In this document: one piece after another, positions 22,393 through 33,964 of the stretch
How the letters are laid out: each line of letters opens with the position of its first letter
Position numbering within the stretch: the first letter of the stretch is position 1
From: Chloroflexota bacterium
GTDB lineage: Bacteria; Chloroflexota; Chloroflexia; Chloroflexales; Roseiflexaceae
Direction of reading: 5' to 3'
Length of the DNA stretch: 35,689 nucleotides
Assembly (NCBI GenBank): GCA_030550675.1
Contig: JAUQOW010000017.1
Coordinates: 1 to 35,689 of the forward strand
Notes under the pieces: generated by a model
Database searches by the model: none
What the model was told of the DNA's origin: nothing
Seen by the model: the letters and a program-made list of their open reading frames with translations, nothing else
Made by a program: the position numbers and the translations under genes

Positions 22393-23436
22393 ATGAATAC
22401 GTCGACGCTGCTCAAGGAGATACATGAACAACCTGCGGCGCTGCGTCGGTTGATTGACGCTGAGTCTGAACCCGTCGCCCGGCTGGCGCGCACATTGAAA
22501 GAGCGCGAATGTCAGTACGTGGTCATTGCAGCGCGCGGCTCGTCGGACAACGCAGCGCGCTATGCCCAATATCTGATGGGCGCGGCGCTGGGTCTGCCAG
22601 TTGCGCTGGCGACCCCTTCGCTCCACACGCGCTACGGCGCCCGTCTGCGCTTTGAGGGGGCGCTGGTGATCGGCATCTCACAGTCGGGCGCCTCACCCGA
22701 CATCTGCACCGTCATCGACGACGCCCGCCGCGCAGGAGCGTCAACCGTCGCCATCACGAACCACCCGGAATCGCCGCTGGCGCGCGCAGCGGAGTTTACT
22801 ATTCTGTTACACGCCGACGTTGAGCGGAGTATCGCCGCCACGAAAACATACACGACCCAACTGGCGGCGCTGGCGCTGCTGACCCTCAGCATGGCAAATG
22901 ACCATGCCGGACTGGCGATCCTGCAAACTGTCCCTGATGCGATAGAAGCGACGCTCTCGCTCGATGACCGCATGCGCGCCATTGCCGGGGCAATGGCTGA
23001 CGCAACCGCCGCCGTCACCATTGGTCGCGGCTATCATTACGCAACGGCATGGGAAATTGCACTCAAACTGAAAGAACTCACATATGTCGTGGCAGAGCCG
23101 TATTCGGCAGCCGATTTTCAGCACGGACCCATCGCGCTTGTACGCGACGATTTTCCGGTCATCCTCATCGCAACCGCAGGCGCCGTCGCCGATGATCTGA
23201 CAATGCTCTCACTTCGTCTGCGCGACCTTGGCGCCCATCTGACGGCGATCAGCGACGTGCCTGCTATTCTGGAAGCCGCGGATCATCCCGTCCTGCTCCC
23301 TGTCAGCGTCGAAGAGCGTTTTGCGCCAATGACTGCGGTGATCGCCGGGCAACTGCTGGCATTTCATCTGGCTCATGCCCGCGGACTCGACCCGGACAAT
23401 CCTCGTGGGTTGCGCAAGGTGACAGAGACGAGGTGA
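22393..23436 (+). CDS. SIS-domain sugar isomerase/deaminase (GlmS C-terminal-like)
   Basis: This 347-residue protein consists of two SIS domains, like the isomerase half of GlmS, without the glutaminase domain. It has AARGSSDNAARYAQYL (phosphate-binding loop), GISQSGASPDICTVI, and TKTYTTQLAALALL. The second half has GRGYHYATAWEIALKLKEL and AADFQHGPIAL, followed by LRKVTETR at the very end, as in GlmS. Such proteins isomerise or deaminate amino sugar phosphates. The frame is open to 22165, but ATG 22393 is preferred because AGGAG lies six bases upstream. It may feed or salvage hexosamine for the adjacent glycan locus (inference). Confidence 0.86.
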   Translation: MNTSTLLKEIHEQPAALRRLIDAESEPVARLARTLKERECQYVVIAARGSSDNAARYAQYLMGAALGLPVALATPSLHTRYGARLRFEGALVIGISQSGASPDICTVIDDARRAGASTVAITNHPESPLARAAEFTILLHADVERSIAATKTYTTQLAALALLTLSMANDHAGLAILQTVPDAIEATLSLDDRMRAIAGAMADATAAVTIGRGYHYATAWEIALKLKELTYVVAEPYSAADFQHGPIALVRDDFPVILIATAGAVADDLTMLSLRLRDLGAHLTAISDVPAILEAADHPVLLPVSVEERFAPMTAVIAGQLLAFHLAHARGLDPDNPRGLRKVTETR

Positions 23437-24088
23437 GAGGTAAGAGGCGAGAGGGGATGCGGCGGAGCGCGCAGGCTCACAGCGGTATCGTCCGTTTCAG
23501 ACATCATGACGCCCCAAATCTCCCTTCTCCCCCAACTCCTCGCATGCGGGGGCAAAGGGGGGCGTGGGAGAGCTTACAAGTGTAGAGTTTTCAGGCAAGC
23601 CCTCGTGTGAGATTGCCCGCTTTGCGTGTCAGGACGCCAAAGCGCTCCCCTCTCCCGCGCTGCGGGAGAGGGGCGGGGGTGAGGGCAACAACAGGCGTCA
23701 GGATGCGGAAAACACCCCTCGCATACTAAAAACTCTACCCCTGAGAGGCGTGGGAGAAGGGGGCTGGGAGGATGAGGGAAAACAGGCGTCGGAACGCGCA
23801 AAACGCCTCTCGCATCTGCAAAACCCCACCCTCGTGAGGAGGGATAGGGGGTGAGTGCAAAACAGGCGTCAGGACACGGAAGACCACTCTCGCAACTCAA
23901 AAAACGCCCCACCCAAGAGGAGCAAAAAATAAGGAGGATAGATACTGAGGCAACCTTCTTCCGAAGTCAGACAGAGGGTTGCTTTGATCAGGGCAATGTT
24001 CGGCTTTGTTCTCGAAGGGGTCAAGGCTTAGAGTCTCTCTAACCCCTAACCCTTAACCCCTAAAAACCCCCAACCCTTACCGTCCCGC
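23437..24088. other. Convergent gene-free region of intergenic repeats
   Basis: No gene is supported between the convergent SIS and auracyanin genes. The stretch from about 23570 to 23920 is built of G-rich and C-rich hairpins and recurring modules around ACAGGCGTC(A/G)GGA and AAAACxCCxCTCGCA. A complete element lies at 23582-23738. From 24040 to 24079 there is a degenerate C-rich run of TAACCCC-type repeats. Open frames here are artefacts of the repeats. Confidence 0.6.
23582..23738. repeat. MITE-like element with GTAGAGTTTT termini
   Basis: This 157-base element is bounded by 10-bp inverted repeats, GTAGAGTTTT (23582-23591) and its complement (23729-23738). At the centre is a perfect 12-bp hairpin (23647-23658 with 23662-23673, 3-base loop). 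Related sequence recurs as imperfect modules to about 23920, and again at about 33690-33950. No transposase is present, so it would be mobilised in trans or be a relic. Confidence 0.65.
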
Positions 24089-24562
24089 TTACGGCGAAAC
24101 CTTCATCACGCCCCACATACCGCCAGCGAAATGCGCCGGATAGGTGCAGATGTAGTAATACTCGCCGGGCGCAGGCGCGGTGAAGGTGATTGTTTCGCTC
24201 GCGCCGGGACCGAGCATCCTCGTAGCGGCGATAATGTCCGTCCGATCAGCTGGCAGGAAGTCGGGAGGACCGGCATTGATCGCTTCTTCATCAACCTTCG
24301 AGGCGACGTCCTGACCGCCCTTGACAATCACGATATTGTGCTGCTGCGCCGTTGACGTGTTCCTGAACGTCAGGGTGATCGTCTGACCCGTAGGAACAGT
24401 GAACTCCTTCTTATCGTATGCCAGGTTCTCGCCATCGGACGCAATCTCAATCGTCGTGCTCGCACCGCCGCCGCCGCCACCGCCGCCGCCGCCGCACGCA
24501 GCCAACGCAAAGGCGGCAACAACCGCGACCATGAGCATCCACAAGGACTTGTGCATCTTCAT
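24089..24562 (-). CDS. Auracyanin-type blue copper lipoprotein
   Basis: This 157-residue type I copper protein has a lipoprotein signal ending ALAAC (lipidated C23), a run of ten glycines as a flexible tether, and a cupredoxin domain from about 36. The copper ligands are visible: H75 in AQQHNIV, then C139, H144 and M149 in CTYPAHFAGGM. The C-x4-H-x4-M spacing matches auracyanins of filamentous anoxygenic phototrophs. There they carry electrons from alternative complex III to the reaction centre. AAGGGGAG lies four bases before the ATG. A near-consensus promoter is just upstream, and no photosynthesis genes adjoin it. Confidence 0.88.
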   Translation of the reverse strand: MKMHKSLWMLMVAVVAAFALAACGGGGGGGGGGASTTIEIASDGENLAYDKKEFTVPTGQTITLTFRNTSTAQQHNIVIVKGGQDVASKVDEEAINAGPPDFLPADRTDIIAATRMLGPGASETITFTAPAPGEYYYICTYPAHFAGGMWGVMKVSP

Positions 24563-27835: not shown

Positions 27836-29449
27836 TTGGAGCCTGCCAATCAACCGCCCAACAAACCGCCGTGGCTGCCGTTTCATATCTCGCGGGATAC
27901 GGCGATCCTGCTGGCAGCCCTGCTCTTTCTGGGGTTCGCCATTCTGCTGGCGGTGCTGTTTCCTCCTGCCGGAAGCGAACTGGCGCGCGCCCGCACGCCT
28001 GCGCCTCTCGAAACGCAGGCGGCGACTGCGCTCGTTGAGCCAGTTCAAATAGCAACCCTTGCGCCCGTCGAGGCGCCGACAATTGCAGCGCTGCCGCCCG
28101 ATGCGCCGCCCTATCCCGCGCCACAGGAAGTTGCGCCAACAACCGCGGCGCCAGCGCCGACCCCGGCGCTGCCGCTGCCGACTGCCGCGCCCGATGCGGC
28201 TGGCGCGGCGCCATCGCCGACCCCGGCGCTGCCGCTGCCGACTGCCGCGCCCGATGCGGCTGGCATAGCGCCGACGCTCCCGATCGCCCAGGCGCCGACC
28301 CTCGAACCGACTCTTGCGCCCCCTCCCGTCGTGCTGCCGACGCCGATGTCGCCTGCCGTCCAGCCGACGCCGGAGCCGCCGCCGGTCGTCGTTCAACCGA
28401 CACCGGCGCCCGCGCCGCCAACGCAGCCGCCAGCGCCCCGCCCGACGCGCCCGCCGCCAACGGCGACGCCAATTCCTGTCGATGTCATTCGCAGTACGAC
28501 CTACTGGACCTTTGCGCAGAGTCCGATTACGCTGCGTCGCGATACGGTCGTTGCCGCAGGCGCCGGATTAATCATTGAACCGGGGGTGGAAGTGCGCCTC
28601 CCGCCGGGCATAACGCTCTATGTCGACGGGCGCCTGTATGCGCTGGGAAAGGCGGATCAGCCGGTGCGCTTCACCGGCGCAAGCCTGCCGCGCTGGGAGA
28701 GCATTGTCGGACGCCCCGGCAGCGACATTGTGCTGGAACATGTCGAGGTGCGCGGCGGCGGCGCTGGCGGAACGGTCATCGCAGCGGATCGGGGATCATT
28801 GACAATTCGTGCGAGCCGCATCATCGACAACGGCGGGCACGTGCGCGTCTCCGCCGGTCGCCTCGAACTGCGCGACAGCGAGATCACGGGCAATGACATG
28901 CCGTATGGCGCAGCGGTTGAGATCATCTATGACAGCGGCGGGACAGTCACCCTGACCGGCAACCGCATCGGCGGCAATCGGATGGCGTTTGGGTCGCCCA
29001 ACGTCCGGATCAGCAGTCGCAGCCCGAACGACACGGTAACACTTGATATTCAGGGGAACCTGCTCGTCGGTCAGGACGGACCAAATCTCGCGCTGGAGAC
29101 GAATGGACCGTTGCAGGGCGCGGTGTTGTGCAACGGGTTTATCGGCGGCTCGAATGGCGTGAGCATTCTCAGCACCCTGCCGCAATCGCCCGGTCTGCCA
29201 GCGTTGACAATTCGGAATAACGCAATTGAGAAGCATACGCCGCCGATTATTCCAATCTATCTGCAGCGCGGCATCGGGCGCGGCGCCACCAGCGACGTGC
29301 TCATCGATATGCGCAATAACTGGTGGGGCGCCGCCGAAGGGCCGTATGAGCCGGATCGCCATGCCGACGGTCGCGGCGATGCGCCGGGCGATCTGGTGCT
29401 GTTCGATCCCTGGCTCACCGAACGTCCCGCCTGCGCTCCGGCGCAATAA
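27836..29449 (+). CDS. Membrane-anchored Pro-rich right-handed beta-helix protein
   Basis: This 537-residue protein begins with a short cytoplasmic segment and one membrane span (about 21-43). A Pro/Ala/Thr-rich linker (about 50-215) follows, then a parallel beta-helix domain to the end. The helix shows AGAGLIIEPGVEVRLPPG, repeated I-x-N/D-N turns such as SRIIDNGG and DSEITGNDM, and the closing NNWWGAAEGP typical of NosD/pectate-lyase-like surface proteins. The linker contains a tandem 60-base duplication. The start appears to be TTG 27836, with GAGG seven bases upstream. It is probably an extracellular surface protein. Catalytic residues cannot be assigned, and a polysaccharide-related role is possible. 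Confidence 0.75.
   Translation: MEPANQPPNKPPWLPFHISRDTAILLAALLFLGFAILLAVLFPPAGSELARARTPAPLETQAATALVEPVQIATLAPVEAPTIAALPPDAPPYPAPQEVAPTTAAPAPTPALPLPTAAPDAAGAAPSPTPALPLPTAAPDAAGIAPTLPIAQAPTLEPTLAPPPVVLPTPMSPAVQPTPEPPPVVVQPTPAPAPPTQPPAPRPTRPPPTATPIPVDVIRSTTYWTFAQSPITLRRDTVVAAGAGLIIEPGVEVRLPPGITLYVDGRLYALGKADQPVRFTGASLPRWESIVGRPGSDIVLEHVEVRGGGAGGTVIAADRGSLTIRASRIIDNGGHVRVSAGRLELRDSEITGNDMPYGAAVEIIYDSGGTVTLTGNRIGGNRMAFGSPNVRISSRSPNDTVTLDIQGNLLVGQDGPNLALETNGPLQGAVLCNGFIGGSNGVSILSTLPQSPGLPALTIRNNAIEKHTPPIIPIYLQRGIGRGATSDVLIDMRNNWWGAAEGPYEPDRHADGRGDAPGDLVLFDPWLTERPACAPAQ
28144..28263 (+). repeat. Tandem 60-base duplication in the Pro-rich linker
   Basis: Bases 28144-28203 and 28204-28263 are identical except for one position (28154 G, 28214 T). 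The repeat is in frame and encodes two copies of a 20-residue unit containing PTPALPLPTAAPDAAG. It lies in the extracellular spacer, so copy-number change would alter only the spacer length. Confidence 0.9.
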
Positions 29450-30710: not shown

Positions 30711-31301
30711 ATGGGTGTCACGCGCATTCTTATCGCGGAAGATAACGATCTGGTCGCGCTCACGCTCGAGGAACAACTGAAAGGGCTGGGCTACGATGTC
30801 ATCGGCATCGCCCGCACCGGCGCCGAAGCGATCGACCTCGCCACACGTCTCGGGCCAGATCTGATCATCATGGACATCCGCATGCCGGAAATGGAGGGAA
30901 CGGAGGCCGCCGCGCGGATCAACCAGCAGCGTCCGACGCCCATTCTGATGTTGACTGCGTACACTGATCGCGAAACCATCCGCAGGGCGGAGCAGGCAGG
31001 CGCACTTGCCTACCTGGTCAAACCGGTGAACGAAGCGGAACTGGCGCCCGCCATCAACATCGCGCTGGCGCGCTTCCGCGATCTGCAGGCGCTGCGCGCA
31101 CAGGTCCACGAACTGGAAGAGTCGCTCGAAGCGCGTAAATTGATCGAGCGCGCCAAAGGCATTCTGATGCAGCGCCTGGGGCTGACCGAACGCGACGCCT
31201 ATGAACGCCTGCGGCAGCGCGCCCGCGATAAGCGCGCCAAGATGAAGGATATTGCGCAGGCGATCATTGAGGCGGAAGAGTTGCTCGGCTCTGGATCGTG
31301 A
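30711..31301 (+). CDS. Response regulator with ANTAR RNA-binding output domain
   Basis: This 196-residue protein joins a receiver domain (about 4-122) to an ANTAR domain (about 133-191), the AmiR/NasR layout. The receiver has the acidic pair E10/D11, phospho-acceptor D55 in LIIMDIRMPEMEG, T82 and K104. The ANTAR part reads RKLIERAKGILMQRLGLTERDAY, with the conserved KGILM core. Such proteins bind paired RNA hairpins when phosphorylated and prevent transcription termination. No cognate kinase adjoins it. ATG 30711 has a GGCGGA-type site upstream, and GTG 30693 is an in-frame alternative. It lies directly upstream of the attenuated aroH leader, but no ANTAR-type hairpin pair was recognised there. 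Confidence 0.9.
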   Translation: MGVTRILIAEDNDLVALTLEEQLKGLGYDVIGIARTGAEAIDLATRLGPDLIIMDIRMPEMEGTEAAARINQQRPTPILMLTAYTDRETIRRAEQAGALAYLVKPVNEAELAPAINIALARFRDLQALRAQVHELEESLEARKLIERAKGILMQRLGLTERDAYERLRQRARDKRAKMKDIAQAIIEAEELLGSGS

Positions 31302-31474: not shown

Positions 31475-31514
31475 AGAAGGCGTGGAGCAACAGGCTCCAC
31501 GCCTTCTTGGTTTT
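31475..31514 (+). terminator. Leader terminator hairpin of the aroH attenuator
   Basis: A perfect 14-bp stem (31475-31488 with 31494-31507) closes on the 5-base loop AACAG. It is followed by TGGTTTT, a modest T-tract interrupted by GG. The stem ends nine bases before the AGGAG of aroH, so the hairpin could also affect ribosome access. Confidence 0.75.
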
Positions 31515-31526
31515 CAGGAGCGGGGT

Positions 31527-31940
31527 ATGACTATCGTCTGTCGTGGCATTCGCGGTGCAACCACTTGCGACGAGAACACGCGCGAGGCAATCCTCGAAGC
31601 GACGCGCGACCTGTTACAACGGATTATTGCCGCCAATGGCGTGCGTCCCGAAGACATCGCCAGCGCCATCTTCAGTACTACGCCTGATCTCACCGCCGAG
31701 TTTCCGGCGGTTGCCGCACGCGAACTCGGCTGGCTCGACACAGCGCTGCTCTGCACCCACGAAATGGCGGTCCCGGGCAGTCTGCCGCGCTGCATTCGCG
31801 TGCTGATCCACTGGAACACCACCCGTCGGGCGGACGAAATCGTTCATGTGTACATTCGCGGCGCACATACCCTGCGCCCTGATCGGAGCATGACCCATGC
31901 GCTGGCAGGGTCATCGGAGGATTGGAGCGGCGGAGGATAA
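31527..31940 (+). CDS. aroH: Monofunctional chorismate mutase, AroH type
   Basis: This 137-residue protein matches the Bacillus subtilis AroH class, a trimer with a pseudo-alpha/beta-barrel fold that converts chorismate to prephenate for Phe and Tyr synthesis. Conserved stretches are [43 protein letters not shown] and [13 protein letters not shown]. They supply the expected active-site Arg, Glu and Tyr. The frame is open from 31482, but ATG 31527 is preferred because AGGAG lies six bases upstream and the family starts there. It is preceded by an aromatic-codon attenuator and followed at once by an intrinsic terminator that overlaps its stop codon. This suggests a short, individually controlled transcript. 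Confidence 0.93.
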
Positions 31941-31955
31941 TGCCTCCGCTTTTTT
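31930..31955 (+). terminator. Intrinsic terminator after aroH
   Basis: A 7-bp GC-rich stem GCGGAGG/CCTCCGC (31930-31936 with 31943-31949) is followed directly by six T (31950-31955). The aroH TAA lies in the loop. It should separate aroH from the DAHP synthase gene unless read through. Confidence 0.8.
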
Positions 31956-31987
31956 GTTCGACTCTAGCGCGCGACGGTTCTCATAGA

Positions 31988-32092
31988 GAAGATCAACCTG
32001 AATCTGGAGAGTCACGCTTGCGCCTGTGGAGCGGTTGGCGTTGGCTTCGACAGGCTCAGCCAGCGCCGATCACCAGATTGTCCAACATCTTC
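31988..32092 (+). repeat. Dispersed palindromic element, copy B (internally deleted)
   Basis: This 105-base stretch matches the reverse complement of 8656-8796. It shares GAAGATCAACC at the left end, CCTGTGGAGCGG, GGCGTTGG and TTCGACAGGCTCA in the middle, CGCCGATCAC, and ATCTTC at the right end. The second arm of the large hairpin is missing, so this copy cannot fold like copy A. It lies between the aroH terminator and the heptamer array. Confidence 0.75.
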
Positions 32093-32093
32093 A

Positions 32094-32198
32094 GTTCTCG
32101 GTTCTCAGTTCTCAGTTCTCGGTTCTCGGTTCTCAGTTCTCAGTTCTCAGTTCTCAGTTCTCGGTTCTCAGTTCTCAGTTCTCAGTTCTCGGTTCCTG
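32094..32198 (+). repeat. Heptanucleotide tandem array GTTCTC(A/G)
   Basis: Fourteen uninterrupted copies of GTTCTCR occupy 32094-32191, with a degenerate fifteenth unit at 32192-32198. The seventh base alternates irregularly between A and G. The array ends about eight bases before the ribosome binding site of the DAHP synthase. The unit is not a multiple of three, so slippage would change the leader length and any reading frame crossing it. Confidence 0.93.
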
Positions 32199-32215
32199 GT
32201 TCTATGGAGGATGCC

Positions 32216-33370
32216 ATGACCGCTCTTGAACTCGATACTGCCGTGCGGCCCCGCCTGCGCCTGCCGCTGCCGCAGAGTCGCCCCTCGTACATCGACCAAC
32301 TCTTACCGCTGGCAAAGGAGAATGTGTCCATGATCGTCGTCATGCGCAGCAACGCAACAGAGGAGGAACTGAACGCCGTTCTGGCGCGCATCCAGGAACA
32401 TGGCCTCAAGGGGCGCGTCACCTACGGCGAGGAACGGAACATCGTCGGCGTCATCGGCGCCGCCATTCCGCCGACGCTCCGCGAAGAGCTTGAGCGACTT
32501 CCCGGCGTCCAGGAAGCGGTGCGCATCACCCGCCCCTACAAACTGGCATCGCGCGAGTTTCATCCCCAAGACACCGTCGTGCAGGTCGGCGACCTTCTCA
32601 TCGGCGGCGGTTCGTTCGTCGTGATTGCCGGACCATGCGCCGTCGAGAGCGAAGCGCAGATTATGGCAACCGCGTTCGCCGTGCGCGAGGCAGGCGCGCA
32701 TATGCTGCGCGGCGGCGCCTTCAAGCCGCGCTCGTCGCCATATACCTTCCGCGGTTTGGGCAAAGAGGGGTTGCGTCTGCTGGCGCAGGCGCGCGCCGAA
32801 ACCGGACTGCCAATCGTGACCGAGGTGATGACGCCGACCGATGTCGATCTGGTGGCGCGCTACGCCGATGTGCTTCAGATCGGCGCGCGCAATATGCAAA
32901 ACTTCCAGTTGCTCGAAGAAGTCGGGCGCAGCGGCAAACCAGTGTTGCTCAAACGCGGCATGTCGGCGACGATTGAGGAATGGCTGCTCTCCGCTGAGTA
33001 CATTATCGCCCAGGGCAACCCCAACGTCATCCTGTGCGAACGCGGCATTCGCACTTTCGAGACCGCCACCCGCAACACGATGGACCTGAACGCCGTGGCG
33101 CTCGCCAAGCGTCGGAGTCACTTGCCGGTGATCGCCGATCCATCGCACGGCACCGGCAAATGGTACCTGGCGCCGCCGCTGGCGCTGGCATCGCTGGCAG
33201 CCGGCGCCGATGGGGTGATGCTTGAGGTGCATCCCGACCCGGACCGGGCGACGTCGGATGGCGGGCAATCGCTGACCTGCGAGAATTTCGCCGCGCTGAT
33301 GCCGCAAATGACGGCGCTGGCGAACGTCCTTGGGCGGCGCGACGCACGCCTGGTGAGTGCGCCGATTTGA
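32216..33370 (+). CDS. aroF: DAHP synthase, Thermotoga/Bacillus type with N-terminal ferredoxin-like domain
   Basis: This 384-residue enzyme makes DAHP from phosphoenolpyruvate and erythrose 4-phosphate, the first step of the shikimate pathway. An N-terminal ferredoxin-like regulatory domain (about 39-115) begins [14 protein letters not shown]. It is followed by the barrel with [54 protein letters not shown] and [11 protein letters not shown]. In the family the extra domain mediates inhibition by Tyr or Phe. ATG 32216 has GGAGG five bases upstream. ATG 32330 also has AAAGGAG upstream and would start exactly at the family N-terminus, so a shorter 346-residue form is possible. It is 275 bases from aroH, behind a terminator. 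Confidence 0.92.
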
Positions 33371-33450: not shown

Positions 33451-33655
33451 CCAGCGATTGAAATCGCCCCTGAAAGGCCTGCAGCCGACCCTCCGCCTGC
33501 GCGGACGGGAACAGTGGCGTCCACTCGCGGTGAGCGTGCCGAACCGCGCAGGTGGACGCCCGGCGGAACGCCTGCCCGGCGCGACTTCAGTCGCCAGCCA
33601 GGGCGCATCGCAGCAGGGACGCGATTTCTTGCAGGCTGACAACTCATGCCTGCAC
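33451..33655 (+). repeat. Dispersed intergenic repeat with two small palindromes, copy 2
   Basis: This is the inverted counterpart of 12306-12486. It starts CCAGCGATTGAAATCGCC, contains GCGACTTCAGTCGC at about 33580-33593, and ends near TGACAACTCATGCCTGCAC. It is about 25 bases longer than copy 1 because of an insertion in the middle part. Confidence 0.78.
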
Positions 33656-33689
33656 CTCCAGCAAACCCTCATGTTGCATCGCCCGCTTC

Positions 33690-33950
33690 AGGCATCAGGA
33701 TGCCCTGGCTCCCCCTTCTCCCGCAGCGTGGGAGCAGGGGGCAGGGGGATGCTCGCAAGGGTAGAGTTTTTCGGCAAGCCATCGTGCTGAATCGCCTGCC
33801 TCAGGCATCAGGACGCCCCGACTCCCCCTTCTCTCGCAGCGTGGGAGCAGGGGGCAGGGGGGATGAGGGGAAAAAAGGCGTCAGAACGAGGAAAACATCC
33901 CTGCTTTTCCAAAACTCTCCATCGAGGAAGAGGGCGAGGGGCAGAGGGGA
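33690..33950. repeat. G/C-rich hairpin modules related to 23570-23920
   Basis: Two imperfect tandem units share GGCATCAGGA(T/C)GCC, then CTCCCCCTTCTC(C/T)CGCAGCGTGGGAGCAGGGGG in segments. GTAGAGTTTTTCGGCAAGCC at about 33761 matches the left end of the element at 23582. AAAACTCTCC near 33911 resembles the other end. This appears to be a decayed cluster of the same element family. Confidence 0.6.
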
Positions 33951-33964
33951 AAACTGGCAGAACG

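Follow-up and report, generated by a model that had tools for sequence, protein, structure and literature searches.

Arrays of a seven-base repeat in a hot-spring Roseiflexus mostly butt against the edges of genes in one fixed strand orientation, whether the edge is the start of a gene or its end. The purine-rich strand of the array begins at the coding sequence (CDS) and extends away from it at either end of a gene, with few exceptions. One of these arrays lies upstream of a DAHP synthase gene of the aroF type in a 35,689-nucleotide stretch of DNA (called the window here). It is one of at least 68 arrays of the unit GTTCTCR (R is A or G) in the genome to which the window belongs, a fragmented assembly of 5,056,782 bases (called G000 here). 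The GTTCTCR arrays in turn belong to a larger set of intergenic seven-base satellites with many different sequences. The array at aroF looks like the product of a general genome-wide process and not like a dial for one gene.

The array upstream of aroF

Fourteen exact GTTCTC(A/G) units occupy positions 32094–32191 on the + strand of the window and are followed by two decayed units, GTTCCTG and GTTCTAT (32192–32205). The Shine–Dalgarno (SD) sequence GGAGG (32206–32210, + strand) stands immediately 3′ of the last decayed unit, 14 bases past the last exact one. The DAHP synthase gene extends on the same strand from an ATG at 32216 to 33370; its product was identified by Pfam (DAHP_synth_1, E = 8.7e-81) and carries its ferredoxin-like domain. 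The end of the last decayed unit creates an in-frame ATG at 32204, and this is the start picked by our own gene finder. TRF reports 15 copies of GTTCTCR with 92% matches and a score of 175, the second highest in the window. The highest score (235) belongs to two near-perfect 60-base tandem copies (28144–28264, 98%) within the predicted ORF 27836–29449. The dimer GTTCTCRGTTCTCR has 427 exact matches in G000 and the reversed-pattern control has none; a chance origin of the array is therefore excluded. The heptamer array before DAHP synthase that the preliminary description reported is thus real, in its 14 exact units as in the identity of the gene.

The upstream neighbor on the + strand encodes a type I chorismate mutase (aroH-like, 31527–31940; Pfam CM_1, E = 2.7e-47 on the ORF 31482–31940), its start at 31527 being set by our gene finder. 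Further upstream, at 30711–31301, lies a response regulator with an ANTAR RNA-binding domain. A consensus scan found a terminator-like hairpin and T-tract after the chorismate mutase gene (31929–31955, hairpin 31929–31950, + strand). By eye, a similar hairpin and T-tract follow the chorismate mutase gene at four other loci (L031, L032, L043 and L180). A lone GTTCTCA unit (31977–31983, + strand) comes next. Between it and the array, a MITE/REP-like dispersed element (TAGAGAAGATCAACC ... GGCGTTGGCTTCGACAGGCTCAGCCAGCGCC ..., 31984–32093, + strand) sits in the heptamer tract at a TCA. It was recognized by matches to its core and by its fold, in which it forms a hairpin. The core GGCTTCGACAGGCTCAGCC has 25 matches in 415,580 bp of examined G000 sequence, and several of these copies are directly flanked by heptamer units. 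Defined ends, a hairpin and dispersed copies are seen for this element and not for the array itself. Elsewhere in the window, the intergenic regions 23480–23920 and 33640–33960 have common phrases (GGCGTCAG.A.G, then GGAAAA or similar, and GGGGGCA-type runs), apparently from another dispersed repeat family.

The array itself has few other recognizable features. A consensus promoter scan around it gave no hit (0.1 expected), and Rfam gave no match at 31850–32300 up to E = 0.1 and none in the whole window at the gathering score. RNA structure is weak on both strands (z = −1.6 sense, −2.3 antisense). We also considered and rejected the array as protein-coding. The sense strand of the unit has no stop in any frame, and so the open frame 31922–33370 is no evidence of a gene.

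Distribution of the GTTCTCR arrays

The 68 arrays examined in G000 hold 314 of the 427 dimers; some arrays, in which the preceding heptamer starts in G and which the end pattern also missed, fall outside this set. A second Roseiflexus genome (G003) has at least 55 arrays among the matches listed. The loci in G000, G003 and a third genome (G005) were chosen for the presence of the repeat. In G005, 30 of the 65 listed places were turned into loci, and 30 of 70 in G001, G002, G004, G008, G009 and G016 together. The trimer occurs in all six members of the genus that were searched and in 13 of 40 genomes overall. The tetramer was found in 8 of 400 genomes sampled across the phylum, five of the eight being Roseiflexus. 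The arrays range from 2 to about 49 units and are mainly intergenic (inside a predicted CDS in 3/68 cases in G000 and 0/55 in G003). Four contigs of G000 (C20, C27, C54 and C121) are broken at heptamer arrays or close to them, and some of their ends seem to duplicate one locus; the copy numbers of long arrays are therefore uncertain in such assemblies.

The short tandemly repeated repetitive (STRR) sequences of cyanobacteria are dispersed heptamer arrays. The GTTCTCR repeats resemble them, being tandem copies of a seven-base unit at many loci, mainly between genes, but their host is not a cyanobacterium. We know of no report of polarity for the STRR sequences.

Polarity relative to genes

Each array was oriented as GTTCTCR, and the distances from its 3′ and 5′ edges to the nearest gene were compared. 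Genes were predicted by our own hexamer-based finder, trained on 135 long ORFs, and not taken from curated annotation; the finder also rewards SD-like motifs in choosing starts. The 3′ edge was nearer to a gene for 57 of 57 usable arrays in G000 (median 6 versus 215 bp), after 11 of the 68 had been dropped (three at a contig end, three inside a CDS, five with no gene on one side). G003 gave 47 of 55, with eight exceptions (median 6 versus 195 bp). Among the other members of the genus the counts were 26/28 in G005 (5 of 33 rows dropped), 7/7 in G001, 6/6 in G004 and 3/4 in G002 (3 of 7 dropped). Both usable arrays of G009 obey the rule, at 28 and 41 bp. Two of three in G016 obey it by small margins, and none of these abuts a gene. 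All five rows of G008 were dropped, leaving no usable array.

The type of gene edge reached depends on the strand of the gene. If the gene on the 3′ side is read in sense, its start is often where the array ends: 43 of 100 arrays in G000, G003 and G005 end within 10 bp of it, as against 3 of 59 among arrays that point away from a start. For an antisense gene, the array reaches the stop codon, ending on it, inside it or near it. The distance to a stop is at most 10 bp for 40 of 48 arrays that point at one and for 6 of 90 that point away (six genomes; Fisher p = 2e-20), a count that needs no start prediction. The background composition, arrays included, is weakly biased in the same direction: the purine fraction is 0.53–0.55 in the 40 nt after stops and 0.48–0.49 at −60 to −21 before starts. 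As to phase, 33 of 65 right edges in G000 end in TCR, and at 54 of 65 left edges the one to three bases before the first GTTCTC agree with the unit, counts that are partly shaped by the chosen unit boundary and the search pattern.

The rule extends to heptamers of other sequence. The window itself has two more arrays in the TRF output. GAGGTGA (23430–23454, + strand) overlaps the TGA stop of the ORF 22393–23436, its purine strand heading away from that ORF. GGGTTAG (24039–24063, − strand; CTAACCC on the + strand) lies 25 bp from the stop end of the ORF 24089–24556 (− strand), with the same polarity. When overlapping TRF rows are merged, other heptamers obey in 36/44 cases in G000, 34/41 in G003 and 6/6 in G005; most of these stretches had been selected for GTTCTCR arrays. 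The unmerged, partly overlapping rows give 91/108, and the merged counts were used instead. In unselected stretches of G000, 10 of 10 heptamer arrays obey, to which the window adds 3 of 3. Unselected stretches of G003 give 13/18 (p = 0.096), or 10/15 for the other heptamers alone (p = 0.3). In unselected DNA of G025, which belongs to another family of the same order, 25 of 26 unrelated arrays obey (p = 8e-7), with units such as AAGGATG, AACATAG and AGAGCAT; those whose unit lacks both GG and CC obey in 13 of 13 cases. Here too the merged counts were used (unmerged: 29/30 in G025, 14/19 in G003, 14/14 in G000 with the window).

We found no intergenic heptamer arrays in 400 kb each of G024 and G006 with TRF at equal threshold. 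G006, a relative from the same family, has intergenic octamer arrays (CACCAAGA and CACGAAGG, at L326–L345) that show no strand polarity (6/11 with a purine majority, of 14 rows). Nonamers in G025 lean the same way as heptamers (11/14), as do period-15 repeats in the Roseiflexus stretches (10/12); periods 8 to 13 in these stretches showed nothing clear on polarity. The polarity is likely restricted to period seven.

Effects on gene borders

An SD-like motif precedes only 5 of the 39 array-abutted starts in G000 and G003, compared with 151 of 247 other genes from stretches not selected for arrays (window included). The aroF gene is an exception among abutted starts in that its SD is kept. The starts predicted next to arrays look sound, because 57 of 63 are ATG (the others GTG) and the N-termini agree in all seven species pairs compared.

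At the other end of genes, the TGA within TGAGAAC often serves as the stop codon. In 15 of 36 stop-abutted genes (G000, G003 and G005) at least two codons plus the stop are taken from the array, giving array-coded C-terminal tails such as ELRTEN. The FolD gene is an example across species. Its tail is array-coded in four of the six genomes of the genus, by three different heptamers: TGAGAAC in G000, GGGTTAG in G002 and G004, and GGGAGTA in G005. These four ends begin at about one common codon. The FolD end in G003 and G001 is native, with no array. Different heptamers thus occupy one gene edge across species.

Turnover and the aroF site in related species

Among the examined loci, which in G003 were enriched for arrays, ten array sites are common to G000 and G003. 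A comparison of nine shared sites shows that most of the unit pattern has turned over since the two species diverged. Within arrays there are higher-order repeats, dimeric and trimeric, and other heptamers are interleaved in register; these mosaics and higher-order repeats point to slippage with unit mutation. In two G003 arrays (L206 and L207), GCTATCR is interleaved in register inside GTTCTCR, possibly the birth of a new heptamer family. By eye, the gene-side units or junction look conserved in two of the nine orthologous pairs, and the far flanks do not. Where the orthologous partner has no exact array, the spacer is clearly longer in the array-bearing member of three of eight pairs (48 versus 281 bases, 55 versus 286, and overlapping genes versus 101), which shows that DNA was gained and not just replaced. 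Decayed heptamers remain in two of the eight partners. A decay gradient along the arrays was considered as a clock for the direction of growth and was set aside, the left and right thirds not differing.

At the aroF site, counting decayed units, the gap before the gene holds 16 units in G000 and 13 in G005 (9 exact); only decayed remnants are seen by eye in G004, and there is no array in G003 or G001. In the last two genomes the T-tract is 105 bases from AAGGAG, compared with 250 bases from T-tract to GGAGG in the window. The search for aroF in G002 gave no match. The length of the array differs between species (one genome per species was compared), and aroF control does not include the array as a conserved component.

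The preliminary description had proposed that the array changes length, that such changes would alter the leader length or promoter spacing, and that it could act as a tuning device for DAHP synthase. The variation in length is borne out between congeners at the orthologous site. The position between the terminator-like site and the SD also agrees with the point on spacing. As a tuning device for this gene, however, the array is a most improbable candidate, even though its variable length and its position speak for such a role. The same unit abuts many other genes, the stop codons of opposing genes are abutted in the same layout, two congeners do without the array, and the promoter scan around it was empty. 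Regulation specific to aroF was ruled out as the main reading by the dispersed arrays and the abutted stop codons.

Comparison with known repeats

The polarity itself is already known. According to the parts of Rehm et al. 2015 (PMC4692102) consulted, the heptamers GGGAATC of Xanthomonas and GGGGA(C/T)T of Nostoc are mostly intergenic, and in two Xanthomonas and one Nostoc the ORF is nearer on the 5′ side of the G-rich strand, whatever the orientation of the ORF. The overlap with stop codons is included in this pattern, and the heptamers accompany many unrelated metabolic genes. The same parts state that most arrays have four units, that no role could be assigned and the polarity is unexplained, and that heptamer arrays are over-represented in bacteria with no agreed explanation; Calothrix heptanucleotides are mentioned as well. 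The GTTCTCR arrays are alike in having a polarity that is irrespective of ORF orientation. The Xanthomonas and Nostoc units, as described there, are G-rich and G-quadruplex-forming, whereas the purine strand here, YGAGAAC, has no two adjacent G (an isolated GG occurs on the other strand of units with R = G). The numbers of units, mostly four in that account and 2 to about 49 here, differ as well. Since YGAGAAC has no G-tracts and all 13 GG- and CC-free arrays of G025 obey the rule, G-quadruplexes are not needed for it. What is new here is that the purine strand lacks G-tracts, that one rule covers many units, and that it is found in two Chloroflexota families.

The TAACTGA arrays of marine Beggiatoaceae, as excerpted from MacGregor 2015 (PMC4679880), end beside start codons where the SD is mostly missing. 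They are mainly forward upstream of starts, and the sense strand is the weakly purine-rich one, an orientation opposite to the purine rule of the Roseiflexus arrays. With GTTCTCR in sense, its complement rotates to GAACYGA, which is near TAACTGA yet on the other strand. The GTTCTCR family shares the feature of arrays that end at SD-less starts, although aroF itself keeps its SD. Within the same phylum as Roseiflexus, Chloroflexus aurantiacus has dispersed (GATAGRA)n heptamer satellites (PMC6749651), a different unit for which the consulted section mentions no polarity. GATAGRA had one match in eight genomes of the order, too few arrays for a polarity test. The element of Geobacter metallireducens (PMC2700814, in part) is likewise a tandem heptanucleotide, dispersed in 49 copies, but it has a fixed number of four repeats and lies both within and between genes. 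Oligopurine and mirror repeats are moderately over-represented in Chloroflexus, Roseiflexus, Anabaena, Nostoc and others, according to an extract of PMC4060949. A search of titles and abstracts found no published account of GTTCTCR repeats in Roseiflexus; a paper that matched Roseiflexus repeats (PMC2612747) concerns CRISPR in the part consulted.

Origin of the polarity

The pattern is mirrored around the CDS, and so the direction or initiation of transcription alone cannot explain it. Our preferred explanation, to which we give a little less than an even chance, is directional growth by slippage that is halted at gene edges by selection. Units would multiply by in-register slippage or template switching, and the purine-rich template strand would set the direction of growth. 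On the nascent strand, which is pyrimidine-rich, the array edge at the 3′ end would creep into the adjacent spacer and replace it. Purifying selection would halt this growth at the CDS, so that the edge comes to rest on a start codon, an SD or a stop codon, and mutation inside arrays would yield new unit sequences. At aroF, this would leave a largely passive stretch of spacer or leader that separates the SD from the upstream terminator-like site, and an influence on expression, if there is one, would be a by-product. We prefer this explanation because a direction built into the array and a barrier at the CDS jointly account for the starts, the stops, the lost SDs and the tails. Several observations count against it, namely the eight exceptions among the 55 arrays of G003, the 13/18 in its unselected stretches, the G016 arrays that abut no gene and the gain of DNA seen as longer spacers in three of eight orthologue pairs. 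Simple growth at one end predicts a decay gradient, and the absence of one counts against it; the conserved gene-side units in two of nine pairs fit growth away from an anchored gene edge better.

The main rival is orientation-specific selection at the RNA level with no directional mutation, which we consider rather unlikely. Arrays would arise both ways round at gene edges, and those giving purine-rich RNA before starts or pyrimidine-rich RNA after stops would be removed as disturbing initiation, termination or stability. The polarity rule does amount to pyrimidine-rich leaders and purine-rich tails, it tracks purine content and no particular unit, and the abutted starts mostly lack an SD. 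Selection of this kind, however, requires two unrelated pressures, at starts and at stops, of similar strength, and the G006 octamers show no polarity. A control element for translation initiation or post-transcriptional regulation, as proposed for the TAACTGA repeats, is unlikely. The single-stranded pyrimidine-rich leader would replace the SD and serve as a binding site for S1, a cold-shock-type protein or another regulator. The proximity of sense-side arrays to starts (43/100) would fit, as would the 34 of 39 abutted starts in G000 and G003 that lack an SD-like motif and the identical layout in Beggiatoaceae, as the MacGregor 2015 excerpts (PMC4679880) present it. Stop codons, however, are abutted at least as tightly (40/48), aroF retains its SD and two of its orthologues have no array. 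Mobile MITE/REP-like elements inserting beside genes, with the arrays as their terminal part or favored target, are a very unlikely explanation. Some left flanks are indeed element ends (GATC..TATCR in 9/68 arrays of G000, AGTATCR in 7/33 of G005), and the window element sits within a heptamer tract at a TCA; but by flank motifs most arrays have no element (0/55 in G003), and the other heptamers share the polarity.

We regard a broader proposal as possible but doubtful. An undescribed directional process, common to bacteria of several phyla, may build seven-base arrays at CDS edges and rewrite gene borders. Its direction would come from the purine-rich strand only, and the period of seven would be part of the machinery, perhaps because a step involving a polymerase, repair or templating has a footprint of seven bases. 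If this is true, one shared process removes SD sequences, supplies stop codons and adds C-terminal tails. The polarity across many unrelated units argues against explanations by a single motif, by G-quadruplexes or by the control of a single gene. The repeats reshape translation starts, stop codons and protein C-termini, and their polarity is easy to count, a simple signature open to testing in any genome and in passaged cultures.
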